From Bacteroidales bacterium (GTDB taxonomy: Bacteria; Bacteroidota; Bacteroidia; Bacteroidales; P3): a DNA stretch of 64,000 bases. Shown piece by piece: positions 1-64,000 of the stretch (positions are counted from its first letter, which is position 1; every line of letters begins with the position of its first letter). The notes below the pieces were generated by a model. That model was not told where the DNA came from and did no database searches. It saw only the letters and a list, made by a program, of their open reading frames with translations. The DNA lies in assembly GCA_017449975.1 (NCBI GenBank), contig JAFSYK010000044.1, positions 1 to 64,000 on the forward strand, read 5' to 3'. The translations under genes and the position numbers were made by a program.

Positions 1-107
1 AGGCCGCGGGCCTGGAAGTAGTTGTTCATGTCGAGGTACAGATAGGCGGAGTACAGCTCTTTATTGATTTGCTCGTTGAGCAGGTCGGCAACTTTTTTGT
101 TAAGCAT
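1..107 (-). CDS. ftnA: Non-heme ferritin, N-terminal part (cut by window edge)
   Basis: The reading frame starts with MLNKKVADLLNEQINKELYS and stays open to the window edge, giving 35 residues. This is helix A of a bacterial 24-mer ferritin. Glu17 falls where the ferroxidase-centre glutamate sits in FtnA. The protein would oxidise and store iron in the cytoplasm. It lies next to rubredoxin and flavodiiron genes, a common oxidative-stress grouping in anaerobes. The rest of the gene is outside the window, so the remaining iron ligands cannot be checked. Confidence 0.88.
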   Translation of the reverse strand, partial: MLNKKVADLLNEQINKELYSAYLYLDMNNYFQARG

Positions 108-126
108 AATTAATTGATTATTGTGG

Positions 127-191
127 GGGCGTACCCCCGTGTACGCCCGTAATGATATTTCTTGGAAGAGGGCGTACACGGGGGTACGCCC
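127..191. repeat. REPIN-like pair of inverted REP hairpins
   Basis: Two 22-nt hairpins lie in opposite orientation, 21 nt apart. Copy one (127-148) has stem GGGCGTAC/GTACGCCC and loop CCCCGT. Copy two (170-191) has the same stem and loop ACGGGG, so it is the exact reverse complement. Single copies lie at 3046-3067 and 17992-18013. An inverted pair of REPs is the layout called a REPIN. Confidence 0.85.
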
Positions 192-198
192 TTACAAA

Positions 199-357
199 TT
201 ATTTTTTCTCGAAATCCTCTTTGCCGACACCGCAGAGGGGGCAGACCCAGTCGGCGGGGAGATCTTCAAATTTGGTACCGGGGGCGATGCCGTTGTCGGG
301 GTCGCCCTTTGCGGGGTCATACTCATACCCGCAGATGGTGCATACGTACTTTTCCAT
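199..357 (-). CDS. rub: Rubredoxin
   Basis: A 52-residue protein with the four iron-binding cysteines in the standard places: Cys6 and Cys9 (CTICGY) and Cys39 and Cys42 (CPLCG). The segment between them ([19 protein letters not shown]) is typical of rubredoxin, and the length is exactly that of small rubredoxins. It is a one-electron carrier that reduces flavodiiron proteins or rubrerythrins. It shares strand and direction with the flavin reductase-rubredoxin and flavodiiron genes upstream of it, so it is probably part of the same electron path. The REPIN-like pair begins just beyond its stop codon. Confidence 0.96.
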
Positions 358-398
358 AGGGTTAAAGGGTTAAAAGGTTTTAGGGTTAAAGGGTTAAA
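358..398. repeat. Period-8 tandem spacer (agggttaa units)
   Basis: The gap between the rubredoxin start and the next stop codon is filled with repeats of agggttaa, some degenerate. It is one of many short tandem arrays between genes in this window. Confidence 0.8.
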
Positions 399-1025
399 TT
401 ATTCCATCAGTTTGAAATCGCTCTTGCCGTGCTTGCACACGGGACAGACGAAGTCGTCGGGCAGCTCGTTGCCTTCGTAGACGTATCCACAGACCTCACA
501 GACCCATTTCTTCTTGTTGGAGGTTTCGAGGGTTTGCGTGTTTGAAGGTTTGGGCTTGATGTGCTCTTGGTAGTAGGCATAGGTGATGCTGGGACTGTCG
601 GTGAGCACCTTGGCCTCCATCGGCATGGCGATGAACAGGGTGTGGGTGCCGAGGTCGATACTTTTGGTGACCACACAGCTGATGACGCTGTTGATGTATT
701 TGGGCAGGTAGCGCAGACCGTTGTCGGTGCGCAGCTCCACTTCGCACTCGGCGAACTTGTCCACCGTCTTGCCGCTCTGGAAGCCGAAGTGCTGGAACGG
801 CTTCATGGTGGCCTCCTCGCTGAGGGGGCAGAGATTGAACTTCAAGGTGTGCAGCACCATGTCGTGCGTTAGGTTCTGCTTGTTGATACAGATGGCCAGC
901 TGCAGCGGATCGCTGGTGATTTGTTGTGCCACATTGATGATGCAGGCGTTGTCTTTCTCGCCCTGACGTGCCACAAGCACAAAGAGTCCGTAGCTGATAT
1001 TGAAGATGGCTTTGTCGTCGATCAT
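399..1025 (-). CDS. Flavin reductase domain fused to rubredoxin (Hrb-like)
   Basis: A 208-residue protein in two parts. Residues 1 to about 160 look like the FMN-binding split-barrel flavin reductase fold. The C-terminal 37 residues are a compact rubredoxin with CEVCGYVYEG and CPVCK cysteine pairs. The same fusion is known from the high-molecular-weight rubredoxin Hrb of acetogens, which passes electrons from NAD(P)H to the flavodiiron protein FprA. Here the flavodiiron gene lies directly upstream on the same strand, which supports that role. The linker is rich in Thr, Ser, Lys and Asn. Confidence 0.9.
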   Translation of the reverse strand: MIDDKAIFNISYGLFVLVARQGEKDNACIINVAQQITSDPLQLAICINKQNLTHDMVLHTLKFNLCPLSEEATMKPFQHFGFQSGKTVDKFAECEVELRTDNGLRYLPKYINSVISCVVTKSIDLGTHTLFIAMPMEAKVLTDSPSITYAYYQEHIKPKPSNTQTLETSNKKKWVCEVCGYVYEGNELPDDFVCPVCKHGKSDFKLME

Positions 1026-1058
1026 AGGGAAGGGTTATGGGTTATTGGTTATTGAGGG
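1026..1058. repeat. Degenerate ggttattg spacer
   Basis: Short AT-rich near-repeats of gggttat and ggttattg fill the 33-nt gap between the flavodiiron and flavin reductase genes. Confidence 0.6.
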
Positions 1059-2276: not shown

Positions 2277-2304
2277 CGTTTGAATGATGATGTTTTTATG
2301 AGAG

Positions 2305-2350: not shown

Positions 2351-2370
2351 TAGGAAAGAATTGACCCTTT

Positions 2371-3045: not shown

Positions 3046-3067
3046 GGGCGTACCCCCGTGTACGCCC
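3046..3067. repeat. REP hairpin, single copy
   Basis: Identical to the first REP at 127-148 (stem GGGCGTAC/GTACGCCC, loop CCCCGT). It begins at the base after the cutC stop codon, so it may act as a 3' hairpin for that transcript. Confidence 0.85.
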
Positions 3068-3096: not shown

Positions 3097-3150
3097 AATT
3101 ATAGGACTAATCAGACCAATTGGACCTATAGGACCAATCCTCCCTCAAAA
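3097..3150. repeat. Period-9 spacer (ggaccaatt/ggacctata family)
   Basis: Near-repeats of 9 nt built from gaccaattg and gacctatag fill the upstream region of the transglutaminase gene. The same family recurs at 13414-13455, 44917-44972 and 52100-52172. Confidence 0.75.
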
Positions 3151-5842: not shown

Positions 5843-7867
5843 TTATTTCAGGAAGGTCTCGTAGTATTGGAATATCTTCTGGTAGAGGTGTAGCCGTTCG
5901 CGGCCGAGGACGTTGTGCTCGTGGTGTGGGTAGACGAAGTAGTCGACCTGCTTGTAGTTGTTGATGCAACGCTCGATGAATTCCAACGAGTGCTGCCACA
6001 CCACCGTGTTGTCCTCCGCGCCGTGGATGACCAGCAGACGGCCTTCGAGGTCTTTGGCTTTGTTGAGGAGGCAGTTGGCCTCGTAGCCTTCGGGGTTCTC
6101 CTGCGGGGTGTCCATATAACGCTCGCCGTACATAATCTCATACCATTTCCAGTCGATGACGGGACCGCCGGCACAGCCCACCTTGAACACTTCGGGGTGC
6201 GCCAGTTTCATGGTGATGGTCATAAAGCCGCCGAAGCTCCAGCCCTCCACGCCCATGCGGTTCTCGTCAACATAGGGCAGGCTTTTGAGGAACTTGACGC
6301 CCTCCATCTGGTCGGCCATCTCGATCTCGCCGAGGCGACGGTGTGTGCAGCTCTCGAACTCGAAGCCACGGTTGTCGGTGCCACGGTTGTCAACGGTGAA
6401 GACCACATAGCCCTGCTGGGCGAGGTACATGAAGTAGAGGTTGCCGCCACCCAGCCAGCTGTCGGTGACCAGCTGCGAGTGCGGGCCGCCATAGACGTAA
6501 ACGAGGGTGGGATATTGCTTGATTGCTTGATTGCTTGATTGCTTGATTGTGTTGGGGTCGACTCCGGGAGGTGTGATGAGGCGGTAGTAGAGATCCGTCT
6601 TACCGTCGGCTGCCTTGATGGTGCCGAGCTTCACGCCGGGCATGGCGTAGTCCTTCAGGGGGTTTTCGGCGGTATATAACGTATAGCCGATGCCGAAGGA
6701 GGCACCCTTTTTGCTGTACTTGACAGGCCAGTAGGTGGCGCTGGCGGGGACGTTAATGGATGTGTTTATGTCCACCATGGCGGTTCCGTTCTCATTTAGG
6801 ACGACGGTATGGGTGCCCTCGTCGCTGGTGAGTTGCAGCATCTCGCCGCTCTTTAGGTTCACGCGGTAGACGCCGCGTCCGGCCAGGTTGTCCTTGTTGG
6901 CATAGATAAAGATATTCTCGCCTTTCTTGTCGAACTGGATGAAGCCCTCGACTTCGTACTCACCCTTGGTCACCTGCTTCACCAACGTGCCGTCGAGTTT
7001 ATACAGGTACAGGTGCTTGTAGCCGTCGCGCATCGAATACCATAGGAACTGGTCGCCTTTGGGGGTGAATATCATGGGCTCGCAGGGCTCCACATAGCGG
7101 GGGTTCTCCTCCTCGAAGAGCACTTTGACGAGCTTGCCGCTCACGGCGTCGTACTGCTCCAGCCACATGTGGTTCTGCTCACGGTTGATCTTGGCGATGA
7201 AGACAAATTTCTCATCGGGGCTCCAAGCGATGTTGGTGAGGTACATCTCGCGCTCGTGGACGGTAGTATCCTTGCGGGTGTCAAGGTAGACAAGCTTCTC
7301 GGTCTTGGTGTCCCATACGCCCACGGTCACCTCGTGGCTCTTCATTCCGGCCATGGGGTACTTGATGGGTTTGGGTTCTGCCTCGCGGGCTTTGGTGTTT
7401 ACCAGCGGGTAGTCCACCACCATGCTCTGGTCCATGCGGTAGAAAGCCAGGCGGCTGCGCTTGGGCGACCAGAAGAGGCCGCCGTCGATGCCGAACTCAT
7501 TGCGGTGCACGCTCTCGCCCAGGACAATGTTGTAGCCGTCGCCCTTCTCGACGAACTGGCCGTCGACATAGAGGCTGCCCTCCTCGAAGGTCACACGTTC
7601 CTTCTTCTCGGGACGCACTATGCCCTTGTACTGCTCTTTTTCGGCGGCGGTCATGGCACGTTCCTCCCGTCCGTTGAAGAGCATATAGGCTGTGTCCTTC
7701 ATGTACATCACCTGGTCGGTGCCGGGCACAAAAGTGAAGCCGCGCATCTCCCGCTGCGGGTAGAGGCTGCGGTCCATCAGCTGGTCCCACTGCAGCAGTT
7801 TCTGTCCCTGTGCCATCATTGTGGCGGCGCACATCACCGCTGCCAATGTCAGTAAAATCTTTCTCAT
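5843..7867 (-). CDS. S9 family dipeptidyl-peptidase IV-like protease
   Basis: A 674-residue exported peptidase. A signal peptide (MRKILLTLAAVMCAATMMAQ) leads into a DPP IV N-terminal beta-propeller and a C-terminal alpha/beta-hydrolase domain. The nucleophile motif is GWSFGGF, with AEDNTV and HHEHNV giving the probable Asp and His of the triad. It would release X-Pro dipeptides from peptides in the periplasm or at the surface. An in-frame 8-bp tandem repeat (6514-6549) adds NTIKQSSNQAIKQ just before the conserved VYVYGGPHSQ that opens the catalytic domain. It converges on the transglutaminase gene with a shared terminator. Confidence 0.94.
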   Translation of the reverse strand: MRKILLTLAAVMCAATMMAQGQKLLQWDQLMDRSLYPQREMRGFTFVPGTDQVMYMKDTAYMLFNGREERAMTAAEKEQYKGIVRPEKKERVTFEEGSLYVDGQFVEKGDGYNIVLGESVHRNEFGIDGGLFWSPKRSRLAFYRMDQSMVVDYPLVNTKAREAEPKPIKYPMAGMKSHEVTVGVWDTKTEKLVYLDTRKDTTVHEREMYLTNIAWSPDEKFVFIAKINREQNHMWLEQYDAVSGKLVKVLFEEENPRYVEPCEPMIFTPKGDQFLWYSMRDGYKHLYLYKLDGTLVKQVTKGEYEVEGFIQFDKKGENIFIYANKDNLAGRGVYRVNLKSGEMLQLTSDEGTHTVVLNENGTAMVDINTSINVPASATYWPVKYSKKGASFGIGYTLYTAENPLKDYAMPGVKLGTIKAADGKTDLYYRLITPPGVDPNTIKQSSNQAIKQYPTLVYVYGGPHSQLVTDSWLGGGNLYFMYLAQQGYVVFTVDNRGTDNRGFEFESCTHRRLGEIEMADQMEGVKFLKSLPYVDENRMGVEGWSFGGFMTITMKLAHPEVFKVGCAGGPVIDWKWYEIMYGERYMDTPQENPEGYEANCLLNKAKDLEGRLLVIHGAEDNTVVWQHSLEFIERCINNYKQVDYFVYPHHEHNVLGRERLHLYQKIFQYYETFLK
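6514..6549 (-). repeat. In-frame 8-bp tandem repeat (attgcttg x4)
   Basis: Four perfect attgcttg units plus a partial one lie inside the DPP IV gene. The same unit, read as caagcaat, forms the array at 57632-57722. Confidence 0.92.
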
Positions 7868-12125: not shown

Positions 12126-12844
12126 CGTTTCATGTCAAACGGGTTCACACGCTTCGCTTTGGCGGGCACCTGGTAGTTGAAAGGTGCGTCGGCGGCAAAG
12201 CCGCTGGTCTTGATATTTTTGTATTCCTCCTTGCGGATGGTCGAGTCGCCCACCGTGTTGTAGGAGATTTGTGTGATGCGTGTCGGGAAGCTGACCCGCG
12301 GCAACGTGGTGTAGTTGCTGTAGTAGGTCTTCTTCACAATCGTCGACGACTGGTCGTAGAAGGCGCAGTAGATGGGTCTGTTGTCCTCCAGCACCAGCAC
12401 CACCTTGGAGTAGATTTTGTCCTCCAGCAGGGTGGGGGTGAAGGTCTTGACGATGCGTTTCCCCTGTTTCTCGGTCTTCTGCAGCACGAAGCCCATGCGT
12501 GTCAGGTTGAGGTTGGCATGGTCGGGCGAGAAGAACTGCAGCATCACTTCCGACTGCTCGGCCATCTCTTTGTCGTTGATCATGGCCACCTCGTTGGTCG
12601 AGGGCTGATAAACCACCACCTCACCCAGCCGGTTGGTCTTCATGTAGTATTCCTGCGGATAGGTGTAGTGGACCACCAGGTCGCCACCGGCGGTGTAGAA
12701 CAGCTGTCGTTCAACGCGGATGGCTTTGTTCTTGACCACCTGACGGGTGGTCACATCGGCCGATATACGTTGCTGCGCATGGAGGCCGCCTACAAGGCAG
12801 AGCAGCAGAAAAAAGAAGGAAGAGCATAGTCCGTTGCGGACCAT
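12122..12844 (-). CDS. LolA-like outer membrane lipoprotein carrier family protein
   Basis: About 240 residues with a signal peptide (MVRNGLCSSFFFLLLCLVGG). The body resembles the LolA/LolB half-barrel: alternating strands, VVVYQPSTNEVAMI, a long middle strand and a late FPTRITQISY. It is placed in the LolA-like superfamily with moderate confidence; an exported lipid- or lipoprotein-binding role in the periplasm is inferred. The start is placed at Met14 of the open frame, which begins a clean signal peptide and leaves a 29-nt gap from the TM2 gene. It is in operon with the YidD-like and TPR genes. Confidence 0.7.
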   Translation of the reverse strand: MVRNGLCSSFFFLLLCLVGGLHAQQRISADVTTRQVVKNKAIRVERQLFYTAGGDLVVHYTYPQEYYMKTNRLGEVVVYQPSTNEVAMINDKEMAEQSEVMLQFFSPDHANLNLTRMGFVLQKTEKQGKRIVKTFTPTLLEDKIYSKVVLVLEDNRPIYCAFYDQSSTIVKKTYYSNYTTLPRVSFPTRITQISYNTVGDSTIRKEEYKNIKTSGFAADAPFNYQVPAKAKRVNPFDMKR

Positions 12845-17039: not shown

Positions 17040-17150
17040 ATTTAGTAGTTGTGTAGACAGTAGTTAAGTAGTTAAGTAGTTAAGGCAAATGTTTTATCGG
17101 GGGTGGTGTTTTGGATTGTCGGACTAGTCGAACAGGTCTGACTAACCCTG
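17040..17150. repeat. mreC-mreD spacer with two 9-bp families
   Basis: Units of agtagttaa (about 17045-17085) are followed by gtcggactagtcgaacaggtctgac units (17115-17150). The first family recurs at 39909-39962 and the second at 44008-44056. Confidence 0.8.
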
Positions 17151-30512: not shown

Positions 30513-30535
30513 CCATAATCAAATAATCAAGCCTT

Positions 30536-36141: not shown

Positions 36142-37662
36142 TCAGAATCTGAAATAGATGAAGGGGCTGAAATCGGTGGCGGCGAGGGCGCCCACGCAGA
36201 GGAAGAACAGCAGTCCTGCCGCGACCCACACGGCGATGTGCTGGCGCGGACTGTAGTCGGTATAGTAGACCCATTGCTGCAGCTTGCGACCCCAGGGGAC
36301 GAGTGTCACGAAGGCGAAGCAGAGCGCGGCGATGAGGGTGACAATAAATTGAGAATTGAGAATTGAGAATTGAGAATGGGTCTGTGTTGGGGTGAAATCG
36401 AACGCGAAGAGGCGGGTGAGGAAGGTCCAGCAGTCGCCCAGGTTCTCGATGCGGAACAGCGCCCAGCCCACCATGACCACGAGGAAGGTGAGAAGAACCT
36501 TTATTAAATTGAGAAGTGAGAAGTGAGAATTGAGAATTGAGAACTGTGGTTGGCGGCCCTGTGGAGCCAATTGAAAATTGAAATTTTTATTCTTTTGGGG
36601 TTGGGGCGGTTGGTTCCAGCCGGTGAGGCGTTCCAGCACCAGAAAGAAGCCGTGGTAGGCGCCCCACAGCACGAAGTTCCAGCCGGCGCCGTGCCACAGG
36701 CCGCTGAGCAGGAAAACCACCCAGAGGTTGAGGTAGGTGCGCCAGACCCCTTTGCGGTTGCCGCCGAGGGGGATGTAGAGGTAGTTGCGCATAAAGGTGC
36801 CGAGGGTGATGTGCCAGCGGCGCCAGAACTCGGTGACGGAGGTAGAGATGTAGGGGTTGTCGAAGTTCTCGGGGAAGCGGAACCCCATGATGCGACCCAG
36901 ACCGATGGCCATGTCGCTGTAGCCCGAGAAGTCGAAGTAGAGCTGCATGGTGTAGGCGGCTATCGTCACCCATGCCGTGCCGCTGTCCAGCGTCGCCAGG
37001 TCGCCGCCCAGCACCACGTCCACGGTGCGGCCGATGACGTCGGCGACGAGCACCTTCTTCGACAGACCGATGACGAAGCGGTAGAAGCCCTGCAGGCACT
37101 CGTCCCAGCGCAGCCGTCGCCGGGCGGAGATCTGGTCGGCAATCTCGTTGTAGCGCACTATGGGTCCCGCTATCAGCTGCGGGAACATGATGATGTAGAC
37201 CACATAGTCCGTCAGCCTCTCCATGGGTCGGTTGACTCCGCGGTAGGTGTCGATGACATAGGTCACCGACTGGAAGGTGAAGAAACTGATGCCGATGGGC
37301 AGCAGCACATGGGTCCAGCTCATCGTGCCCAGGCCGAGTGCCGTCAGCATGGCGTTGACGTTGTCAACAAAGAAATTGGCGTATTTGAAGTAGGCCAGCA
37401 GTCCCAGACTCACCGTCAGCGCCGCCGCGCACCACAGCCGTTTGGCGGTGACGGTGCGGGCTTTTTCCATTGCCCGCACGAGGTAGAAATTGGCGACGGT
37501 CGAGGCCAGCAGCGTCAGCACGAAGTCCGGCGCACCCCAGGCGTAGAACACAATCGAGGCGACCAGCAGCACGACATTGCGCCACCGTTCCCGCACAAGG
37601 AAGTAGACCAGCAGGAACACTGGCAGGAAATACAACAGGAATATGTGACTGCTGAAAACCAC
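36142..37662 (-). CDS. MBOAT family O-acyltransferase (AlgI-like)
   Basis: A 506-residue polytopic membrane protein with the MBOAT pattern: WNFVLWGAYHGF with the conserved His, LLPIGISFFTFQSVTYVID, FWRRWHITLGTFMRNYLYIPLGG. It moves acetyl groups across the inner membrane for polysaccharide O-acetylation with the AlgX-like partner. Two in-frame repeat blocks add SQFSILNSQF near residue 430 and QPQFSILNSHFSLLN near 380, the latter next to a small REP-like element. Both lie between membrane segments, where insertions are probably tolerated. Confidence 0.92.
   Translation of the reverse strand: MVFSSHIFLLYFLPVFLLVYFLVRERWRNVVLLVASIVFYAWGAPDFVLTLLASTVANFYLVRAMEKARTVTAKRLWCAAALTVSLGLLAYFKYANFFVDNVNAMLTALGLGTMSWTHVLLPIGISFFTFQSVTYVIDTYRGVNRPMERLTDYVVYIIMFPQLIAGPIVRYNEIADQISARRRLRWDECLQGFYRFVIGLSKKVLVADVIGRTVDVVLGGDLATLDSGTAWVTIAAYTMQLYFDFSGYSDMAIGLGRIMGFRFPENFDNPYISTSVTEFWRRWHITLGTFMRNYLYIPLGGNRKGVWRTYLNLWVVFLLSGLWHGAGWNFVLWGAYHGFFLVLERLTGWNQPPQPQKNKNFNFQLAPQGRQPQFSILNSHFSLLNLIKVLLTFLVVMVGWALFRIENLGDCWTFLTRLFAFDFTPTQTHSQFSILNSQFIVTLIAALCFAFVTLVPWGRKLQQWVYYTDYSPRQHIAVWVAAGLLFFLCVGALAATDFSPFIYFRF
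36346..36377 (-). repeat. In-frame 7-bp repeat (aattgag x4)
   Basis: Tandem aattgag units inside the MBOAT gene, in frame; the same unit lies between genes at 59042-59060 and 61372-61402. Confidence 0.9.
36505..36590 (-). repeat. In-frame aattgag block plus REP-like element
   Basis: Units of aattgag/aagtgag (36505-36545) are followed by GGCGGCCCTGTGGAGCC (36552-36568) and aattgaaaattgaaat. The REP-like element recurs at 42852-42868. Confidence 0.85.
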
Positions 37663-37663
37663 T

Positions 37664-37692
37664 TTTTAGTTTTTAGCTTTTACTTTTTAATT
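37664..37692. repeat. Period-7 spacer (gttttta/cttttta units)
   Basis: It fills the gap between the membrane protein and the MBOAT gene and contains the membrane protein's stop codon. Confidence 0.75.
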
Positions 37693-38905
37693 TAATACTC
37701 TCCCAGTCCACCAGGCTGGCGGCGGCGAAGAGCAGCCCCAGGATGGTGACGGCGAGGATGCGGTAGGTGAACCAGAAATGAAGCCCCGAATGGTTGGCCA
37801 GAGCCATGAACCAGACGAGGGGTGCCAGTGCTACGACAAAGCAGGTCAGCGCCTGTCGCCAGCCTTTGCGGTTGAAGTGACGCACTGCCAGTACGACCAA
37901 CACGACCAGCGCCACTGTGGCGTAGAACCACGGCACCTGCTCCAGGTTGCGTGTCATGGCCTCCCAGCGGTCGAACTGTTCGACAGAGGCACGCAACGCC
38001 ACCTGTCCGGTGGCGTCGGCAAAGACATCGAACGAGGTGGTCACGGTGGCCAGCAGCCATTTGGCAGCCCAGGTGGCGCCATAGCCGACGACCCAGATGA
38101 GGGAGTGTAAAATTGAGGATTTGTGCGTCTCACATATACCATCATCCACCTTTTCTCTTGAAACCAGCCACACCAGCAGGGGGATGCCCCAGGTGAGCAG
38201 GGGACAGGTGAGCAGGTCGAAGTAAGCGGTCAGCGAGCCCATCACCAAGAAGAACGGCAGCAGCTGTCGCGGTTCCCGCACACGGTACAGCACCCACAGT
38301 GTTCCTGCCAGGGCCAGCAGCAGGGTGGTGAAAAACTGGATGGAGTGCTGCATGATGAAGAGGTTGACGGAGGCCAGGGCGAGCGCGTAAACCACCGCTG
38401 CCCAGGTGCCAATGCGGCGTGCCATGAGGACGAGTGCCCATGCCAGCAGCAGCGACGACAGCAGGTAGAAAAAGGTGCGCAGCGCCAAGTAGTCGTTGAT
38501 GTAGAGCAGCGCGCGCATGAGGAATGTGCTGCCGTGCCAATAGCGGGGGTAGCATAGCTCTTGTAGCGGCTGGTCGCCGTCGACCATAAGCCGCAGGTTT
38601 GCGCACTCTTCTCCGCCGCTAACCTGTCGCGGCACCAGCATCGTGCGCTGCCACAGGTTCTGCTCCGTCCGTCCGTTGGTCAGCGCCTGGTTGACAATCA
38701 GTGCGTCGGTGAAGTTGTCCATGTAGTAGGTGGACTTGTAGAGGAAGGCAAACCAGAAATCGGACTGGAGGTCGTGTTGGTCGACGGTTTCTTTCACATG
38801 CTCCTCCACTGGCGCCTGGGGCAGCAGGGAGGTGGCCAGCCCGAAAAGCAGATAGCAGGCGATTAAAACTAAAAAGTAAAAACTAAAAACTAAAAATCTT
38901 TTCAT
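37673..38905 (-). CDS. Polytopic membrane protein, unknown (glycan-cluster neighbour)
   Basis: About 410 residues with around ten hydrophobic segments and a large periplasmic loop after the first (about residues 30-110, with YKSTYYMDNFTDALIVNQAL). The layout resembles membrane glycosyltransferases of the GT-C type, but no signature confirms it. The start is set at MKRFLVFSFYF; seven codons upstream in the frame are made of aaacatt repeats. The first helix (FLVFSFYFLVLIA) and the last residues (KLKSKS) are both encoded by AAACTAAAA-type repeats. It lies between GT2 and MBOAT genes. Confidence 0.78.
   Translation of the reverse strand: MKRFLVFSFYFLVLIACYLLFGLATSLLPQAPVEEHVKETVDQHDLQSDFWFAFLYKSTYYMDNFTDALIVNQALTNGRTEQNLWQRTMLVPRQVSGGEECANLRLMVDGDQPLQELCYPRYWHGSTFLMRALLYINDYLALRTFFYLLSSLLLAWALVLMARRIGTWAAVVYALALASVNLFIMQHSIQFFTTLLLALAGTLWVLYRVREPRQLLPFFLVMGSLTAYFDLLTCPLLTWGIPLLVWLVSREKVDDGICETHKSSILHSLIWVVGYGATWAAKWLLATVTTSFDVFADATGQVALRASVEQFDRWEAMTRNLEQVPWFYATVALVVLVVLAVRHFNRKGWRQALTCFVVALAPLVWFMALANHSGLHFWFTYRILAVTILGLLFAAASLVDWESIKLKSKS
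38862..38899 (-). repeat. Repeat forming first membrane helix
   Basis: Tandem aaaaact/aaaaagt units encode RFLVFSFYFLVL. Same units as 34731-34759. Confidence 0.85.
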
Positions 38906-38917
38906 GGCCGGAAACAC

Positions 38918-38948
38918 ATTAAACATTAAACGTTAAACATTAAACGTA
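38918..38948. repeat. Period-7 spacer (aaacatt/aaacgtt)
   Basis: Four units of ttaaacat/ttaaacgt lie between the GT2 and membrane protein genes. The family recurs at 40099-40133. Confidence 0.85.
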
Positions 38949-39887: not shown

Positions 39888-40132
39888 TAAACCTGATACT
39901 ATTTTGGTAGTTAATGTAGTTAAGGTAGTTAAAGTAGTTAAGGTGGTTAAAGTTAGTTAAAGGACAAATGACTAATAACTTCTTAGTTCTTAACTCTTAC
40001 TTCTTACTTCCCCTAACTGCTAACCGCTTTTTAGATTTTAGTTTTTACTTTTTAGTTTAAAACCTACCCCTTTAACCTTTTGAACCCCTTAACCCCTTTA
40101 AACGTTAAACCTTAAACGTTAAACGATAAACA
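39888..40132. repeat. Gene-free spacer built of four repeat families
   Basis: In order: gtagttaag units (39909-39962), tcttacttctta units (39978-40005), gtttttactttttag units (40028-40060), then ccctttaac and aaacgtt units (40065-40133). No ORF is convincing. Confidence 0.8.
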
Positions 40133-40609: not shown

Positions 40610-40662
40610 AATCTAGGTTTTCTAGATTATCTAGATTGTCCAGATATCCTGGATTTGGATTA
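40610..40662. repeat. tctagatt spacer
   Basis: Near-repeats of tctagatta and tctagattg with ccagatatcctgg, between the GreA-like and aminotransferase genes. Confidence 0.7.
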
Positions 40663-42812: not shown

Positions 42813-42815
42813 ATT

Positions 42816-42915
42816 AGTGACAAGTGAATAGTGAATCGTGAAGTGAAAGTCGGCGCCCCTGTGGAGCCCAATGAGAAAGTCTCGTCACTAATCACCAATC
42901 ACTAATCACACAAAA
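42816..42915. repeat. Spacer with agtga/aatcac repeats and a REP-like element
   Basis: Units of agtgaatagtgaatcgtgaag precede GGCGCCCCTGTGGAGCC (42852-42868), then tcactaatcaccaatcactaatcac. It separates the delta and alpha subunit genes. Confidence 0.8.
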
Positions 42916-42925
42916 AGAACAAAGT

Positions 42926-44008: not shown

Positions 44009-44056
44009 CATCCGACAGGTCTGACTAGTCCGACTAGTCTGACACGTCTGACAAAA
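44008..44056. repeat. Period-9 spacer (gtctgacta / gtccgacta)
   Basis: Units of tctgactagtccgactag and tctgacacg separate the alpha and beta genes. The same units occur in frame in the transglutaminase gene. Confidence 0.88.
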
Positions 44057-44917: not shown

Positions 44918-44972
44918 CTTATAAGTCCTATAAGGCCTATAAGTCCTATAGGTCCTATAAGTATCAAACAAT
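44917..44972. repeat. Period-9 spacer (tataagtcc)
   Basis: Five tandem tataagtcc-type units (cttataagtcctataaggcc and so on) separate the beta and gamma genes. Confidence 0.9.
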
Positions 44973-52099: not shown

Positions 52100-52172
52100 A
52101 TGTCCGATTAGACTAATTGGACCAATTAGACTAATTAGACCAATTAGACCAATTAGACCAATAATTTCTATT
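52100..52172. repeat. Period-9 spacer (ttagaccaa x6)
   Basis: Tandem units of attagaccaatt-type lie between the RND pump and NUDIX genes. One of the clearest 9-bp arrays in the window. Confidence 0.92.
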
Positions 52173-54208: not shown

Positions 54209-56275
54209 CTATAGCTGTTTCAGCGCTTTCTCCAGGAACTGCGCCATGCCGTCGGCTTTGCTGTTGGCGCTCTTGGCGGGGTCGTAGATATAGACTTCGG
54301 GCAACACCTGGTTGCCGTCGGCGTCGATGACGGCATAGCAGGGCTGTGCGTTCTGGTTGAACTGTTCTATCTGGTAGCGCAGGTTGCGGCGCCCCAGCGT
54401 CTTGATGGTGCGGCTGCCGTCGACAATCCACTCCTCTTCGGGCAGCTCAATGTCGTTCATGTCGGCATACAGCGCGCAGATGACAAACTCCTCGTTGAGC
54501 AGCTTCTTCACCCTTGGGTCGGTCCACGCCACCTGCTCCATCTCGCGGCAGTTGGCGCAGTTGCGTCCGGTGAAATCGATGAACACCGGCTTGCCCACCT
54601 CGCGGGCGTAGGCCTTGGCCTCCTCAATGTCGTAGAAGCCTTCGAAGCCTGTGGGCAGATGCAGCTTGTCGGCGTATTTACGGTCGGCGGGCAGCTTGCC
54701 TACGGTCACTGTGCCGCCGTTGCCGCCGCCGTGCTCCACCACCAGTTTCTCGATATTGAAATCCTGCGTGTCCATCGGTGGCAGGAAACCGGCGATGCCG
54801 TTGAGCGGGGCGCCCCACATGCCGGGAATCATATAGACCACGAATGAGAAGGTGGCGATGACCAGCGTCAGCCGCAACACGCCGATATGTTCCACCGGCT
54901 CGTCGTTCTTGAACCGTATCTTGCCCAGCAGGTACATACCCATGAGGCCGAAGATCACGATCCACAGCGCCAGGTATACCTCGCGGTCGAGCAGATGCCA
55001 GCTCCAGTAGAGGTCAGCCATCTGCAGGAATTTGAGGCCGAAAGCCAGCTCGAGGAAGGCGAAGACGATCTTCACGGCGTTCATCCAACCGCCCGACTTC
55101 ATATTTTTGATCATCGACGGGAAGATGGCCAGCAGCGTGAACGGCAGCGCGAAGCCGATGCCGAAGCCCAGCATGGTGAGCAGCGACACCCACCGGTTGG
55201 CCGTGCTGGTGGCGAAGCCCACCAGTGCGCCGCCGATGATGGGACCAGTGCAGCTGAAAGAGATGAGCACTGTCGTCAGCGCGATAAAGAACGGTGCCAT
55301 CAGGCCACCCTTGTCGGCCTGCTCGTCGCTCTTGTTCACCCATTTTTCGGGCAGCTTGATCTCAAACAGACCGAAGAACGATAGGGCGAAGACGATGAAG
55401 ATGGCAAAGAAAATGAGGTTCGTCACACCGTGTGTGCCCACCAAGTTCAGCACCTCGGGGCCGAAGAACAGCGACAGTATGGCGCCCAGCACGGTGAAGA
55501 TAAACACGATAGAGAAGCCGAAGAACCACGCCTGGCGACGGCTCTTGCGCTTGCTTCCGTTGCCGTGCATGAAGAAGTTGACGGTCATCGGTATCATGGG
55601 GAACACGCACGGCGTGAACATCGTCACGATGCCGAACAGCAGCGCGCCGAAGAAAATCGCCCAAAGGCCGCCGGAAGCACTCTCTGAGGCGGCAGGCTTG
55701 TCATCAGGGCTCTCTGAATATTCTGAGTACTCAGAGGATTCTGAGGATTCAGAGGATTCAGAGGATTCAGATGACTCCGATACCTCGGATGCCACTTCCG
55801 CCACCACCGTCGCCACTTCCGCCGCCTCTTTCACCTTTATCTCAAACGGCACATCGTCGGGGGCGATGCAGCTGGTCTCGTTGCACAGCTGATAGTAGAG
55901 GCTACCTTTCACGCTAAAACTCTTGCCTGTGGTGCGGCGTATCTTCTGGCGGAACTTCACGGTGCCGTCAAACGACCGTACCACCACGCCAAACATCTCG
56001 TCCATCGCCTCGTGGGGCTTGGGCTCGCGCACTGCGCCGACGCGGCTGTAGTCCTTGCTCTCGTCGAACGTCACCTGCAGCGGGATGGGGCCACCTGTGC
56101 TGGAGTGCTGCGAGTAGATATGCCAGCCGTCGTCGAGTTTGACGGTCAGCGTCAGCTCCACCTCGTCGCCCGACAGGTTCTGTGCATTGAAGCTCCAGTG
56201 GGCGGGGTTCAGCACCTGTGCCGTCGCCGACAGCATACAGATGCAAGCCATTAAGAAAGGTATCAGTTTTCTCAT
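54209..56275 (-). CDS. dsbD: Thiol:disulfide interchange protein DsbD
   Basis: About 688 residues: signal peptide, N-terminal DsbD-alpha domain (FNAQNLSGDEVELTLTVKLD, SCIAPDDVPFEI), eight-helix membrane core (FTPCVFPMIPMTVNFFMHG; FSCTGPIIGGALVG) and a C-terminal thioredoxin domain with NCANC near 571. It carries electrons from cytoplasmic thioredoxin to the periplasm. Between the alpha domain and the core, 9-bp repeats encode SESSESSESSEYSEYSES in frame, forming a flexible linker. Confidence 0.94.
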   Translation of the reverse strand: MRKLIPFLMACICMLSATAQVLNPAHWSFNAQNLSGDEVELTLTVKLDDGWHIYSQHSSTGGPIPLQVTFDESKDYSRVGAVREPKPHEAMDEMFGVVVRSFDGTVKFRQKIRRTTGKSFSVKGSLYYQLCNETSCIAPDDVPFEIKVKEAAEVATVVAEVASEVSESSESSESSESSESSEYSEYSESPDDKPAASESASGGLWAIFFGALLFGIVTMFTPCVFPMIPMTVNFFMHGNGSKRKSRRQAWFFGFSIVFIFTVLGAILSLFFGPEVLNLVGTHGVTNLIFFAIFIVFALSFFGLFEIKLPEKWVNKSDEQADKGGLMAPFFIALTTVLISFSCTGPIIGGALVGFATSTANRWVSLLTMLGFGIGFALPFTLLAIFPSMIKNMKSGGWMNAVKIVFAFLELAFGLKFLQMADLYWSWHLLDREVYLALWIVIFGLMGMYLLGKIRFKNDEPVEHIGVLRLTLVIATFSFVVYMIPGMWGAPLNGIAGFLPPMDTQDFNIEKLVVEHGGGNGGTVTVGKLPADRKYADKLHLPTGFEGFYDIEEAKAYAREVGKPVFIDFTGRNCANCREMEQVAWTDPRVKKLLNEEFVICALYADMNDIELPEEEWIVDGSRTIKTLGRRNLRYQIEQFNQNAQPCYAVIDADGNQVLPEVYIYDPAKSANSKADGMAQFLEKALKQL
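55711..55775 (-). repeat. In-frame 9-bp repeat (gaggattca) in dsbD
   Basis: Six to seven tandem gaggattca/tctgagtac units encode the Ser/Glu linker. Confidence 0.9.
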
Positions 56276-56305: not shown

Positions 56306-57631
56306 CTACTTCAAATTATATTTCAAAGTCTTGTGAGCCTTGGCGGTCTCTATCTCCAGCGTATAGCGTCCCTTGGGCAGCTTGTTGATGCCGATGCGTT
56401 TGCCGCTGGTGTAATGCTCGATGGTGCGCACCGTCGTCCCCTCTTTGTCGACAAAGGTGATGGTGGCCTCTTCGCCGCCGCTGTATTTCAGCACGATATA
56501 TCCCAGGTCGAGGTAGGGCACCACCTTCACATCCAGCGTCGCGCTGGCGCTTTTCGTCGTCCCTGCCTTGCCTGTGCTGGCGCCTGTCGTCGCATCGCTG
56601 CTGGCGGCCTCGGCCGTCTCCTCCTTGGGTGGCTCGATGGGTTTCGGCTCGGGGAACTTAAACTCGCTCAGGGCAAACAGGCCGTAGAAATCGCTGCCGA
56701 ACCACACGGTGCCCATGGCGTCGGCCGCCACGCACTGCATATTGGCCTCTGCCGGGAAGGGGCTGTTGGTGGCGTTGAAGGCATACCATTTCCCCTTGCG
56801 GTCGTACACGGCGCCGCCCTTGTTGGTGGCGATCCACAGCCATCCCTGTGCGTCCAGTGCCAGTGCGTTGATCTGGTTGGAGGGCAGGGGAGTGTTGTCG
56901 GTATTGAAAATCTGCCATTTCTCGCCGTCGAAGCGGCAGAGACCCTTGTCGGTGCCCACCCATTTGATATTGTCGCCGTCCACGGCGATGGCAGGCACGA
57001 TATTCGACGGCAGCCGCGAGTTCTTGTTGGTGAACAGCGTCCACGTGCGTCCGTTGTAGAGGCAGAGGCCGGCGTTGGTGCCGATCCATTTGCGGTTGGC
57101 GCGGTCAATGGCGGTGCAGAGCACAAAATCGCTCAGCAGCTCCGAGTCGTCGGGCGTATACTTGTCCCAGTTGCGGCCGTCGTAGCGCACCAGACCGTTC
57201 AGTGTCACGCTGATCCACTTCACGTCGTTGATGTCGATGGCGATGCTGTGTATCAGCCGCATATTGTATTTCTTCAGTTCGTCGGGGTACTCCTTCCACT
57301 CCTTGCCGTCATACGAGATGGGGCCGTAGTCGTCGGTGCCGATCCACAGCACGCCGTCGCGGTCCACGGCGAAGCAGTTCACATACTGTCCTTCCAGCTT
57401 GCTGTTGCTGGCCGACAGGTCCGTCCAGGTGCGTCCCTTGAAGTGGAACAGCCCTTCGGGGGTGCCCACCCACAGGTTATGGCGTGCGTCGGCTGCCAAA
57501 GCCAGAATGGTATTGCCCGCCAGCTTGCTGTTGGTGTTGTTATAGGCTGTCCAGGTCTCCTGCGCCCACAGGCTGCAGGTACTTATCATCAAGGTCAATA
57601 TGGCAATGAGTCGTTTCACAAATTCCCGCAT
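56306..57631 (-). CDS. Exported propeller protein (two-component-regulator type)
   Basis: A 441-residue protein with a signal peptide (MREFVKRLIAILTLMISTCSLWA) and seven or so propeller blades with repeated NxWVGTxxGL motifs (residues 30-330). A linker rich in Pro, Thr and Ala and a small C-terminal beta domain follow. No sensor kinase is attached, so it is probably a surface or periplasmic binding protein. The start lies against the 8-bp array at 57632. Confidence 0.85.
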   Translation of the reverse strand: MREFVKRLIAILTLMISTCSLWAQETWTAYNNTNSKLAGNTILALAADARHNLWVGTPEGLFHFKGRTWTDLSASNSKLEGQYVNCFAVDRDGVLWIGTDDYGPISYDGKEWKEYPDELKKYNMRLIHSIAIDINDVKWISVTLNGLVRYDGRNWDKYTPDDSELLSDFVLCTAIDRANRKWIGTNAGLCLYNGRTWTLFTNKNSRLPSNIVPAIAVDGDNIKWVGTDKGLCRFDGEKWQIFNTDNTPLPSNQINALALDAQGWLWIATNKGGAVYDRKGKWYAFNATNSPFPAEANMQCVAADAMGTVWFGSDFYGLFALSEFKFPEPKPIEPPKEETAEAASSDATTGASTGKAGTTKSASATLDVKVVPYLDLGYIVLKYSGGEEATITFVDKEGTTVRTIEHYTSGKRIGINKLPKGRYTLEIETAKAHKTLKYNLK

Positions 57632-57722
57632 TCAAACAATCAAACAATCAAACAATCAAGCAATCAAACAATCAAGCAATCAAGCAATCAAACAATCAAG
57701 CAATCAAGCAATCAAGCAATTC
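57632..57722. repeat. 8-bp tandem array (aatcaaac / aatcaagc, about 11 copies)
   Basis: A near-perfect array fills the whole gap between two genes. The unit is also found in frame inside the DPP IV gene. Confidence 0.95.
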
Positions 57723-59041: not shown

Positions 59042-59060
59042 AACTCTCAATTCTCAATTT
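59042..59060. repeat. Period-7 spacer (aactctc/aattctc)
   Basis: Same aattgag family as in the MBOAT gene, opposite strand. Confidence 0.8.
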
Positions 59061-59067
59061 CCTAATT

Positions 59068-59136
59068 CTCCTGCTCGGCCTTTCGGCCTCACGAAATCTC
59101 TCGTATCTTGTAGATTTCCCGCTTCGCGGATTTTTT
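59068..59136. repeat. Modular hairpin element, left copy (inverted to 61301-61365)
   Basis: Its reverse complement shares 46 identical nt with 61301-61346, then diverges slightly. Modules: hairpin CCGC-GAA-GCGG, 9-nt atctacaag units, hairpin GGCC-GAAA-GGCC. Confidence 0.9.
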
Positions 59137-61365: not shown

Positions 61366-61436
61366 AACAAGAAAATTGAGAATTGAGAGTAGAGAATTGA
61401 GAATTAAGCTGCCGCCAACCTGCGATAGCAAGAAAA

Positions 61437-61545
61437 TCTACAAGATCTAAAAGATCTCGCGAGCGAAGCGAGCAGAAGCCCAATCCGCGAAGCGGGAATA
61501 ATTTATAAGATCCACGAGATTTCGTGAGCGCGAAGCGCGAGCAGG
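61437..61545. repeat. Further modular element copies
   Basis: Two copies of the gatctacaa/hairpin element in tandem, including the 17-mer at 61458-61474 and hairpin GCGC-GAA-GCGC. Confidence 0.85.
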
Positions 61546-61589
61546 AGAATAAAACCTGCGCTAGCAAGAAAATCTGTTTAAACAGACCG

Positions 61590-63146
61590 CTAAGCCTCCT
61601 CGCGGTGCTCTTTGCGCAGCAGGTCGTTGACCGTCTTGACGGGGTTGAAGGTCTCCAGTGGCACCTCCACGAAGAGGGTGATCCAGTGCGCCATGGCGCC
61701 GTTCCAGAGGCCGGGTAGCTCCTGCGATTTCACAACCTGTGCTCCTTTGCTCTTCTTGCTGATGAAGCCGGTCTGCGGGTCGACAAACTGCCGCAGGTCG
61801 AAATAGCGTCCGCGATAGTCCTTCGTGCCGCACACCAAATCCACGGGGTTGAAGTGGCTGGCGCCTTGCAGGATGGCCTCTTGCGACGGCTCTTTGCGGT
61901 TGATTTGCGCCGTCTCCACAATCTGCAGGCTGCGGCGTCCGTTGCTGTCGGCCACAAAGAAGGGGCCGCCGCCGGGTTCGCCCTGGTTCTTCACCATGCC
62001 GCAGATGCGGATGGGGCGGTTCATGGCGTCAAACAGGATGCTGCATTGCTCCTTGACGGGCCGCTCTTCGAGGTCGTCGGGTAGGGCGATGAGCAGACGC
62101 TCGCTGGCAAAGCGGGCCATCTTCTTCAGCTCTGCCGCCGTCGCCTTGCCTGTGCGCAGCTGGCGCAGGTAGGGGAAATATTGCCGTTGCAGGTCGAGCA
62201 GCAGACCCGCCAGCGCCTTCTTGTAGACGAGGGTGGGCTCCTTCATCCAGTCGGGCACCACGTTGTCGATGTTCTTGATGAAGATGACATCGGCGCGGCA
62301 CCCGTTCAGGTTCTCTATCAGGGCACCGTGGCCGCCGGGGCGCAGCATCAGGCGTCCTTGCTCGTCGCGCACGGGGTTGTTGTATTCGTCCACGGCGATG
62401 GTGTCGGTGCTGTGTTTCTGCTCCGACATCGACACCGACAGGCGGATGCCCAGCGCCGACTCATACTGGTGGCGTACCTGTGCCAGCTTGCGGCGGAACA
62501 GGGCGCGGTGTTCGGGCGAGATGGTGAAATGCAGCCGCACCGTGCCGTCGTTGCCGCGGGCGTAGGCGGCGCCTTCCACGATATGCTCCTCCAGCGGCGT
62601 GCGCTGACGGTTGCCGTATTTGTGGAATTTCAGCAACGCTTTGGGCAGGGAGCCGTAGCCCAGATACTGCTCTTTGAGCAGCATATTGATGACCGAGGCG
62701 TACTCGCGGCGCTCCAGATAGTCCTGGAGGTGCATCGACGTACTTTCTATCTCGGCTTTCAGGTCGTCGTAGAACGCAAAGGTGGACAGGTTCTGGATGA
62801 ACTGCTCCACCGAGGGGTACTCTTTCTCAAAGTTCTTTGCAACGCCGGTATACTGCGCTGTAAAGGCGTAGAGATCCTTGAACATACGGCTGGCGGCACC
62901 CGATGCGGGGACGAATTTCAGCAGCCGTTTCTCCTTCGAAAGTCGCTGATAGCATGATAGATATTTGTCTATCTCTGCCTTGCTCATGCGCAGGATGCCT
63001 CCGTTCTCCACGGTGGCGGCGGCGACCAGCGAGCAGGGGGGAAAGCCCTGACGGAAATGGGTCAGTTGTCGCTCGATTTGTTCGGGCGTGATGCCATACG
63101 ACGCCAGCTGTCGCAGGTCGTCGGGCGAAAACTTCTGGGATGCCAT
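61590..63146 (-). CDS. DUF4301 family protein
   Basis: A 518-residue cytoplasmic protein that matches DUF4301: KFVPASGAASRMFKDLYAF near 78, GSLPKALLKFHKYGN, RPGGHGALIENLN, RICGMVKNQGEPGGGPFFV and NPVDLVCGTKDYRG. GSLPKALLKFHKY and the Gly-rich GHGALIENLN resemble nucleotidyltransferase-like sugar-activating enzymes. No experimental role is known. It starts 12 nt after the small lipoprotein gene on the same strand. Confidence 0.92.
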   Translation of the reverse strand: MASQKFSPDDLRQLASYGITPEQIERQLTHFRQGFPPCSLVAAATVENGGILRMSKAEIDKYLSCYQRLSKEKRLLKFVPASGAASRMFKDLYAFTAQYTGVAKNFEKEYPSVEQFIQNLSTFAFYDDLKAEIESTSMHLQDYLERREYASVINMLLKEQYLGYGSLPKALLKFHKYGNRQRTPLEEHIVEGAAYARGNDGTVRLHFTISPEHRALFRRKLAQVRHQYESALGIRLSVSMSEQKHSTDTIAVDEYNNPVRDEQGRLMLRPGGHGALIENLNGCRADVIFIKNIDNVVPDWMKEPTLVYKKALAGLLLDLQRQYFPYLRQLRTGKATAAELKKMARFASERLLIALPDDLEERPVKEQCSILFDAMNRPIRICGMVKNQGEPGGGPFFVADSNGRRSLQIVETAQINRKEPSQEAILQGASHFNPVDLVCGTKDYRGRYFDLRQFVDPQTGFISKKSKGAQVVKSQELPGLWNGAMAHWITLFVEVPLETFNPVKTVNDLLRKEHREEA

Positions 63147-63158
63147 GATGTGCTGCGG

Positions 63159-63626
63159 TTACTCGGCGGGTTCGGGTTCCACGTCCACCACATTGACGAC
63201 GATGCTGTCCAGCAGGATGTCGCCGTTGATGTAGACAGTGGATTCCACCGTCTCACCCTCTTTCAGGCGGATGGACGATGAGCCGTCGCTGTGGAAATGC
63301 TTGTACGTATAGGTAATCGTCGAGGGGTCGGAAATGGAATCGACCGTGGTCTCGATGATAAACATACGGGCGTTGATGTCAAAGACGGCCGGAGCGGCGA
63401 ATTTGGTGCTGAACACACCCTCGTCGTCGGTGTAGCCGAAATCGCCCACCGTGCTGCCCGATGCGCTGATGGACACAGCGGCATGCGGCACCACGCGGCC
63501 GGTTGCCTGTTCGACGACGGTGACATCCAGATAACTATACGTGTCTTTGTCGCACGATTGAAATGTGATGGCGCCTAAGGCGCTGAAAAATAGAATGCCG
63601 ACGGCAATCAGACCTTTTTTCTTCAT
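63159..63626 (-). CDS. Small lipoprotein with carboxypeptidase-regulatory-like domain
   Basis: A 155-residue protein with a lipoprotein signal (IAVGILFFSALGAITFQSC) and one beta-sandwich resembling a carboxypeptidase-regulatory or Ig-like domain (YLDVTVVEQATGRVVPHAAV, GYTDDEGVFSTKF). Function unknown. A TATTTTTG box lies at 63668-63675. It is probably co-transcribed with the DUF4301 gene. Confidence 0.8.
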   Translation of the reverse strand: MKKKGLIAVGILFFSALGAITFQSCDKDTYSYLDVTVVEQATGRVVPHAAVSISASGSTVGDFGYTDDEGVFSTKFAAPAVFDINARMFIIETTVDSISDPSTITYTYKHFHSDGSSSIRLKEGETVESTVYINGDILLDSIVVNVVDVEPEPAE

Positions 63627-63718
63627 ATTTTTCTCGCTATGTAAATATTTTCAACTAATTTTGCATGCAAAAATAACAAATTTCGGTCTATTCTAATAAA
63701 AAAATAATATTGCACTTC

Positions 63719-63726
63719 TAAATTTG
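63719..63726 (+). promoter_or_regulatory. Possible -7 box of pheS
   Basis: TAAATTTG, 58 nt before the start; no clear -33 TTTG at 19-20 nt. Confidence 0.4.
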
Positions 63727-63784
63727 TTGCAAATTTTTCTTTTGGTTAGACCTATATATCATAGATACAAACTGTTGCATAGTT

Positions 63785-64000
63785 ATGTTGAAGGATCAAA
63801 TCAAGGAGCATCTGAACGACATCCACAACACCCACGTGGAGAATTTTAAGGATCGTATGGCGGAAATCGAGATGTTCCGCGTCCGTTATCTGGGTAAAAA
63901 GGGTTTGTTGAACGACCTGTTCGACCAGTTCAAGTCGCTGCCCAACGAGGAGAAGCGCGAGGTGGGTCAGTTGCTCAACCAGCTGAAAGAGGCCGCCCGT
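63785..64000 (+). CDS. pheS: Phenylalanyl-tRNA synthetase alpha subunit, N-terminal part (cut by window edge)
   Basis: 72 residues open to the edge. The pattern is the PheS N-terminal coiled coil: EIEMFRVRYLGKKGLLNDLF then QFKSLPNEEKREVGQLLNQL. It charges tRNA-Phe with PheT. Confidence 0.92.
   Translation, partial: MLKDQIKEHLNDIHNTHVENFKDRMAEIEMFRVRYLGKKGLLNDLFDQFKSLPNEEKREVGQLLNQLKEAAR

Follow-up and report, generated by a model that had tools for sequence, protein, structure and literature searches.

Polar tandem arrays of 7-9-bp units in a Bacteroidales genome as possible tiny palindromic elements

How does a single bacterial genome come to hold short tandem arrays of many different 7-9-bp units, and did such arrays grow where they stand or arrive from elsewhere? 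The question is raised by a 64,000-nt stretch of DNA from an uncultured gut bacterium of the Bacteroidales (assembly GCA_017449975.1, contig JAFSYK010000044.1, positions 1 to 64,000), called here the window, in which an initial annotation had noticed many families of such arrays at gene boundaries. The genome that holds it, G000, is a draft of 2.31 Mb in 103 contigs, and the window lies in contig 11. G-numbers denote genomes (G002, G009, G014 and others are congeners), L-numbers and C41 sequence stretches or contigs. Among the named matches listed, the nearest to the window's DUF4301 protein comes from the metagenome-assembled genome (MAG) 'bacterium P3' (74%), followed by Candidatus Colimorpha and then by many rumen and gut Bacteroidales MAGs. 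We give a probability of about one half to the reading that the arrays are tiny mobile-like palindromic elements with tandem arms, together with single arms, which were moved or copied and afterwards evolved by slippage.

Abundance, polarity and turnover

Arrays were called with Tandem Repeats Finder (score at least 40, period 7-9, overlaps removed), which recovered all nine units quoted in the initial annotation. The window contains 26 of them, whereas 60 first-order Markov shuffles gave 0.07 on average and never more than 1. The G000 sample consisted of the window and twenty 20-kb stretches (464 kb of the 2313-kb genome), taken non-randomly from contigs picked up by prior matches, and gave 163 arrays, or 35 per 100 kb, with none in one shuffle per stretch; extrapolation suggests roughly 800 arrays per genome. 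Arrays are thus common outside the window, and their reported occurrence genome-wide, on both strands and with several families in one spacer is supported; no CRISPR-like spacing was seen. Clustering to within one mismatch for 7-mers, or two mismatches, gave 30 unit families, 20 of them with at least two arrays, which bears out the claim of many families. The non-genic arrays are sharply limited in period, with 45, 44 and 39 at periods 7, 8 and 9, only 1, 3 and 4 at 10, 11 and 12, and none at 4-6 or 13. The median array length is 32 bp at period 7, 36 bp at period 8 and 38 bp at period 9, and the longest arrays reach 213 bp. Three tandem copies of AATTGAG, with at most one mismatch, occur at 92 sites of G000; of 394 other Bacteroidota genomes, 12 contain them.

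Genes in the sample were called by a simple hexamer gene caller. As the initial annotation had it, placement is mostly at gene edges: 128 of the 163 arrays lie outside called genes, 126 of these being flanked by genes on both sides and carrying 63 exact units. Co-directional spacers hold 98 of the 126, divergent 15 and convergent 13, which corresponds to 3.1, 2.0 and 1.5 per kb. For 93 arrays of this set, which lie no more than 60 bp away from a gene edge and are closer to it than to the other edge by 10 bp or more, the unit could be read outward. Read in this way, G exceeded C in 38 of 43 arrays at starts; at stops it did so in 30 of the 47 that were informative. When G000, G002 and G014 were pooled, 7- and 8-mers were G-rich outward in a ratio of 50:9 at starts (p=5e-8) and 51:10 at stops (p=1e-7), these p-values being somewhat too small because two arrays paired in a spacer are no independent observations; for nonamers the ratios were 11:1 and 10:15. 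Of 28 mixed spacers in the same three genomes, 26 had the G-rich array ahead of the C-rich one on the plus strand, and pairs with an identical unit, one at a stop edge and one at a start edge, had the same outward orientation 55 times and the opposite one 8 times. Orientation is a property of the unit family, rather than of G/C or stop content. Stop codons were considered as the cause of polarity and rejected: TTAAACG (8 of 9 arrays) and AAAAACT (6 of 6) are polar though stops occur on both strands, and GGTTATT keeps one outward orientation in 4 of 4 arrays, on a strand that is stop-free by inspection, so that stop content alone is insufficient.

Comparison with congeners showed presence and absence at orthologous sites. 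In the operon for pyruvate:ferredoxin oxidoreductase, porA is preceded by a spacer of 17-26 bp in 19/19 congeners and of 113 bp in G000, where it contains a hairpin made of an AGTGAAT-type arm, the core GTCGGCGCCCCTGTGGAGCC and a TCACTAA arm (42885-42909). The porA-B spacer is at most 16 bp in 16/20 congeners (14 bp in 8/20) and filled in 4/20, and the porB-C spacer is 23-26 bp in 7/20, with other fillings in 13/20. The fillings are mostly arrays whose units differ by species; by eye they are non-tandem in both of these spacers in G016 and G005 and in porB-C in G011. Elsewhere in the window, the site of the GGTTATT array at 1033 corresponds to a spacer of 10-11 bp in G009 and G022 and to a different, 122-bp hairpin in G002. 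The 119-bp spacer at 3101 is represented by 2 bp in G002, G009, G015, G022 and G010, and by 151-805 bp of other content in G019, G008 and G023. In a single orthologous pair, an array of G021 differed from that of G017 by exactly one 9-bp unit.

Both the array load and the unit families are lineage-specific. Non-genic arrays number 27.6 per 100 kb in G000, 33.2 in G002, 30 in G011 (20 kb only) and 13.1 in G014; in the low-load congeners G009, G006 and G016 there are 6.2, 2.7 and 0 (the last in 60 kb). G441, the nearest species found (83% PolA identity), gave one weak array in 20 kb against 17, at the same threshold, in the polA-bearing stretch of G000, only polA being alignable between the two. 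Array pairs more than 1.5 kb apart have exactly the same unit in 2.1% of cases within G000, 1.8% within G002 and 0.4% between the two, and when labels were permuted across the whole set of arrays, close pairs among them, 0 of 2000 trials reached the within-genome excess.

Hairpins, related copies and coding inserts

Of 72 spacers tested in G002, 18 have edges that are inverted repeats of each other (40 permutations: mean 0.8, maximum 4); 17 of the 18 are co-directional, as are 55 of the 72 overall. By eye, most of these hairpins consist of tandem arms around a non-repetitive loop, the exceptions being two GC-rich palindromes of the GGGCGTACACGGGGGTACGCCC type and one convergent, terminator-like hairpin. 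Adjacent G-then-C arrays of G002 share the period in 13 of 14 pairs, and their units agree within two mismatches in 9 of 14 (P=0.0005). Ten chosen spacers from G000, G002 and G015 fold as RNA with z from -2.2 to -9.2. Inverted-matched spacers amounted to 1/38 in G009 and 0/16 in G016. Among named relatives from the DUF4301 match list, 6 of 196 co-directional spacers matched (permuted maximum 2), four of them tandem-armed; none of 47 did in the 20 stretches that represent other families in the order, where non-genic arrays number 2.1 per 100 kb. The notion that every array is half of a hairpin was not upheld in G000; it holds for a quarter of the tested G002 spacers. No hexamer stands out in array flanks except array-like words; CAAATG, found in 5/126 inner flanks in G000, 3/71 in G002 and 3/21 in G014, is a minor motif.

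Whole elements recur at different sites. Four pairs were found in G002, each alike across arms and loop: L243 11813/12860 (86% over 133 bp, in neighbouring spacers about 1 kb apart), L242/L240 (84% over 99 bp), L239/L238 (84% over 81 bp, the L238 copy lying in a called gene) and L197/L241 (78% over 96 bp). Two G002 copies carry the same T/A change in all four units (GTAGTTAAA versus GAAGTTAAA). In G000, part of the element in the MBOAT gene (36527-36588) resembles C41:55075-55137 (92% over 63 bp). These five pairs, 78-92% alike over 63-133 bp, are related copies at different loci, as in a miniature inverted-repeat transposable element (MITE), yet no core is common to the families. Imperfect words of 18, 21, 24 and 27 nt were common to more array pairs than in any of 50 unit-order shuffles; for 27-mers these were 31 pairs against a shuffle mean of 13.4 and a maximum of 20.

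The remaining 35 of the 163 arrays lie in called genes, so the initial statement that arrays carry no open reading frame was wrong in part, some being read in frame in housekeeping genes. Many are AT-rich members of intergenic families in a stop-free frame; some (55720-55771, SES repeats) resemble ordinary coding repeats, and the array at 44014 was counted as genic only because an antisense frame was wrongly called over porA/porB. The host genes include those for dipeptidyl-peptidase IV (DPP-IV), an MBOAT acyltransferase, a Mur ligase-like protein, an M20 peptidase, a fumarate-reductase-like flavoprotein, NqrA, an ABC ATPase, DNA polymerase I and a radical-SAM/TRAM protein. The first three were compared with congeners, and in all three an in-frame insertion is missing from orthologues, as with Rickettsia palindromic elements. 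In DPP-IV the array at 6514 reads in frame (TIKQSSNQAIKQY) between two domains, and 10 residues are absent there in 3/4 congener sequences and 4 residues in the fourth. All eight congener sequences of the MBOAT protein are shorter at the site of the element 36510-36588; at the 36347 array, FNSQ[FC]SIFNSQF stands at the same place in 3/8. Two arrays lie at residues 110-146 of the Mur ligase-like protein, and 25 of the 27 congener matches listed begin at residue 145-149. In the PolA linker, with 29 sequences aligned, G000, G007 and G002 have different repeat peptides. Given the in-frame arrays, the polarity and the hairpin arms in a close species, the purely intergenic, purely tandem picture first drawn finds no support.

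Three sets of repeats stand beside these elements. AATTGAG arrays of distant Bacteroidota (L231-L236, family f34), which at several loci seem by eye to stand within coding sequence, some near the ends of secreted proteins, were not treated as the same elements. A MITE-like palindrome of 102-112 bp (TAGGTAACCACTAATTATTCG ...) with a period-9 interior has at least six copies in the G000 sample (pairs 84-99% identical), which were counted among the arrays as AACACGAAT/AACGAATCT. The GC-rich GGGCGTACACGGGGGTACGCCC-type palindrome is common to G000 and G002 (window 3046-3067, 131-150; L242:14279-14431, 14969-15062; L021:8014-8214), and in two G002 spacers it forms inverted copies around a loop; it resembles repetitive extragenic palindromes (REP) and is distinct from the AT-rich arrays.

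Origin of the arrays

According to the reading that we prefer, the arrays would belong to a population of tiny insertion elements that are non-autonomous, some of them intact and others reduced by decay to a single arm. The intact ones would be palindromes of about 60-130 bp, each arm an imperfect tandem repetition of a 7-9-bp unit, while single arms measure about 30-40 bp. They would enter mostly minimal co-directional spacers, and also coding genes when in frame and stop-free. Units would be renewed by replication slippage within an arm and, presumably, copied from arm to arm by template switching in the hairpin, and a changed unit that replaces all copies could let a new family bud off. The signs of copying and of slippage, taken together, therefore lead us to propose elements that were moved or copied and then went on evolving by slippage. 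Movement was probably by copying, the elements of G000 have probably decayed to single arms, and their maintenance may be near-neutral or selfish. A further step, which we put forward only tentatively, would see here a separate class of minimal genetic parasite that has no gene or fixed sequence and is defined by polar inverted 7-9-bp tandem arms, copying itself into spacers and genes and inventing unit families by slippage and arm-to-arm copying, with its register set by the replication or primer machinery.

Several results weigh against the preferred reading. In G000 the inverted match of spacer edges is weak (6/150 spacers; permuted mean 1.3, maximum 6; same-strand control 10), units of adjacent pairs match in 5/19 (P=0.07), and a reverse-complement partner lies near 9/163 arrays (control 1). 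G014 has 5/55 inverted-matched spacers (permuted maximum 2) against 4 in the same-strand control, and that control also gave 4 in G002. The excess of common words is gone once they reach 30 nt (7 pairs, with up to 8 in shuffles), the number of arrays sharing 18-24-mer words is not outstanding, and ten word-sharing pairs stem from a separate 110-bp element. A loop core, CCTGTGGAGCC, seemingly common to two window elements, occurred 4 times genome-wide against 4 control hits; all four sites are in or beside arrays, and it therefore marks one subfamily at most. Three MBOAT orthologues carry FNSQFSILNSHY-type peptides elsewhere that replace a conserved segment with no gain in length, and the PolA linker is nearly equally long in G000 and G441, so that array gain is not always simple insertion. 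Comparison by eye, with no systematic search and with flanks too diverged to place junctions, revealed no target-site duplication or exact junction. Nor was a mover identified, PF01797 being the transposase family that was counted. This family, Y1_Tnp, is present in 20/25 genomes (2 in G000, 3 in G002, 0 in G014), and the REP-associated tyrosine transposase (RAYT) was rejected as mover, as Y1_Tnp is absent from array-bearing G014 as well as from array-poor G009 and G006.

The strongest competing account, which we consider possible though rather doubtful, holds that nothing moves: arrays would grow by slippage from tolerated local sequence in a 7-9-nt register, as in long simple sequence repeats (LSSR) or in STRR, the name for cyanobacterial short tandem repeats; units would recur because slippage prefers certain sequences, and hairpins would come from quasi-palindrome correction. 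The sharp period spectrum, the one-unit difference between G021 and G017, the concerted change in the G002 copies, the rarity of matched arms in G000 and the array peptides that replace a segment all speak for it, as does exact-unit sharing between G000 and G002 of 0.42%, ten times the composition-matched chance of 0.04%. It fits poorly with unit identity that is four to five times as frequent inside a genome as across genomes, with whole elements whose non-tandem loops recur at different sites, with inserts in conserved coding genes, and with mismatch repair that has been kept: MutS1 was above cut-off in 33/33 genomes, which also led us to reject loss of mismatch repair as the cause. We find it unlikely that the arrays serve as leaders or as hairpins between cistrons and are under selection because they stabilise mRNA, insulate translation or bind a regulator. 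Polarity at both starts and stops, predicted RNA hairpins and the higher density in co-directional spacers would suit such a role; the por spacers that are short and empty in congeners, different units at one site, the lack of any array in 60 kb of G016 and the arrays inside coding genes do not.

Polarity alone would look the same if arrays were the ends of larger transposons, each bracketing an ordinary gene with inverted copies. Arms around the same gene match in 0/153 cases in G000 (permuted mean 1.4) and 4/58 in G002 (permuted mean 0.85, maximum 4), and in G002 it is the arms flanking a spacer that do match, which makes this explanation very improbable. An assembly or binning artefact, which the initial annotation had allowed for and which the 103 contigs of the draft might suggest, is hardly credible, because the arrays have median lengths of 32-38 bp and lie at orthologous places, with the same polarity, in separately assembled species; tandem-armed hairpins also occur in the named records L185, L193 and L166.

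Among known systems, LSSR and cyanobacterial tandem repeats are, like the arrays here, short tandem units of 5-11 bp above chance and mainly intergenic, often of 7 bp and sporadic among species (PMC4679880, PMC4692102); the present set differs in its roughly 30 families in one sample, near-equal use of 7, 8 and 9 bp, edge polarity, matched hairpin arms in a congener, gene inserts and presence or absence among congeners. REP and GTAG/CGTC-tagged palindromes are reportedly small and dispersed, like the elements here, and REP are linked to the RAYT transposase; unlike REP, the arrays have no flank hexamer tag (tetranucleotide tags were untried as such) and in G014 no accompanying Y1_Tnp. Porphyromonas gingivalis, host of the BrickBuilt MITE, belongs to the Bacteroidales. 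BrickBuilt is likewise an intergenic tandem repeat inside an inverted-repeat element, but a single one, present 19 times in one strain, with a 23-bp unit, leader and tail, whereas here the repeats themselves are the inverted arms (PMC4596501). Rickettsia palindromic elements are small, of several families, and in frame in unrelated metabolic genes; they have about 150 bp and a conserved peptide, in contrast to 7-9-bp tandem arms in which no common core was found (PMC10969869).

Single-heptamer arrays are described for TAACTGA in Beggiatoaceae, where a regulatory role was proposed and one-base variants are rarely tandem, as well as in Cyanobacteria and five Bacteroidetes (PMC4679880), and for GGGAATC in Xanthomonas (PMC4692102). 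The TAACTGA arrays are also intergenic direct repeats near start codons, but they have one favoured unit in Beggiatoa and not a cloud of related ones as here; in G. forsetii and A. sublithincola the spacers contain other heptamers as well, and those of close relatives are shorter, with no obvious repeats (PMC4679880). Repeats of 5-11 nt are over-represented in some genomes, heptamers being favoured and slippage proposed (PMC4679880, PMC4692102), and those of 6-11 bp in some archaea (PMC4060949). With the caveat of these reports, the initial claim that no described mechanism makes many 7-9-bp units in one genome can stand. Each property thus has a known parallel, and the combination of unit cloud, polarity, tandem-armed hairpins and coding inserts appears in none of the reports as far as they were available; a search that left subscription papers mostly outside found no polar multi-family set, and no account of multi-family 7-9-bp arrays in Bacteroidales. 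If our reading is right, repeats usually filed as slippage noise would be polar, lineage-specific insertion elements in at least one gut or rumen Bacteroidales lineage, which also add peptides to housekeeping proteins (dipeptidyl peptidase, NqrA, Mur ligase-like, fumarate-reductase-like). The occupied and empty sites would then form a series for the birth of tandem repeats and hairpins and for the reason behind the 7-9-bp register, one that bears on whether slippage and palindrome formation are a single process.

Individual arrays and minor observations

The arrays and elements of the window, together with two groups of repeats from elsewhere, are collected in Table 1.

Table 1. Coordinates of arrays and elements (window positions unless a stretch is named)
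Position	Strand	Feature	Context
358..398		AGGGTTAA octamer array, 5.1 copies	between two minus-strand genes
1033..1054		GGTTATT heptamer array, score 37	33-bp spacer
3101..3138		ATAGGACCA nonamer array	119-bp spacer
6514..6549	minus	CAAGCAAT octamer array, 4.5 perfect copies	DPP-IV gene; reverse complement of GCAATCAA
13418..13454		GACCTATAA nonamer array	spacer
17059..17084		AGTAGTTA octamer array, then GCAAATG	
36347..36377	minus	AATTGAG array	MBOAT-family gene, translated HSQFSILNSQF
36510..36588	minus	AATTGAG-type array, GC-rich core CTGTGGTTGGCGGCCCTGTGGAGCC, AATTGAA array	element in MBOAT gene
37663..37693		TTTTTAG heptamer array	overlaps 3' end of minus-strand gene
38865..38896		AAAACTA array (TTTTTAG reverse complement)	near 5' end of called gene
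38916..38945		ACATTAA/TTAAACG array	between two minus-strand genes
39907..39962		GTAGTTAAA nonamer array	G-rich half of spacer 39888-40132
39978..40010		ACTTCTT heptamer array	spacer 39888-40132
40028..40058		TTTTTAG heptamer array	spacer 39888-40132
40066..40101		ACCCCTTTA array, score 44	spacer 39888-40132, overlaps array 40098..40131
40098..40131		TTAAACG array	spacer 39888-40132; TTAAACGTTAAACCTTAAACGTTA common to it and three other sample loci
40611..40645		ATCTAGATT nonamer array	50-bp spacer
42813..42925	plus	hairpin element	in 113-bp spacer before porA
44014..44054		GTCTGACTA-type nonamer array	60-bp porA-porB spacer
44920..44962		TATAAGTCC nonamer array	70-bp porB-porC spacer
52107..52162		ATTAGACCA nonamer array	between AcrB-family and NUDIX genes
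57628..57720		GCAATCAA octamer array, 11.6 copies	fills spacer; 41 matches in genome
59132..59163		TTTTTAG array	just upstream of M23 peptidase gene
61374..61405		AATTGAG array	convergent spacer, M23 peptidase / DUF4301 genes
L027:5044-5146; L032:5244-5345, 6333-6434, 12612-12723; L036:10246-10357; L029:10506-10614		MITE-like palindrome copies	
L022:10521-10667; L030:6404-6520, 15355-15476; L032:4406-4565; L024:16866-16975		recurrent composite loci	72-83% over 103-121 bp

Four arrays, and a fifth overlapping the last of them, share the spacer 39888-40132. A 24-mer with the same variant unit is common to the arrays at 38865 and 59132 and to L030:6489. In the composite loci the array order TTGTGAAG, CTTAACAT recurs, followed at several of them by GCTAACT-type and TTTTTAG arrays, which looks as though composites were duplicated en bloc.

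At window 61406-61600 and 59060-59130, array stretches are separated by short hairpins rich in GC (GCGAGCGAAGCGAGC, CCGCGAAGCGG, GGCCTTTCGGCC), and loops of G002 hold similar ones (GCGAGCGCAGCGAGC). Among viral contigs, 37 stretches contain TTTTTAGTTTTTAGTTTTTAC. Finally, window 30294-32676 and L027:1-2386 are related loci (76% DNA identity over 2.4 kb) that cover a predicted secreted-protein gene of the window, with AATTCAAA-type arrays near the end.

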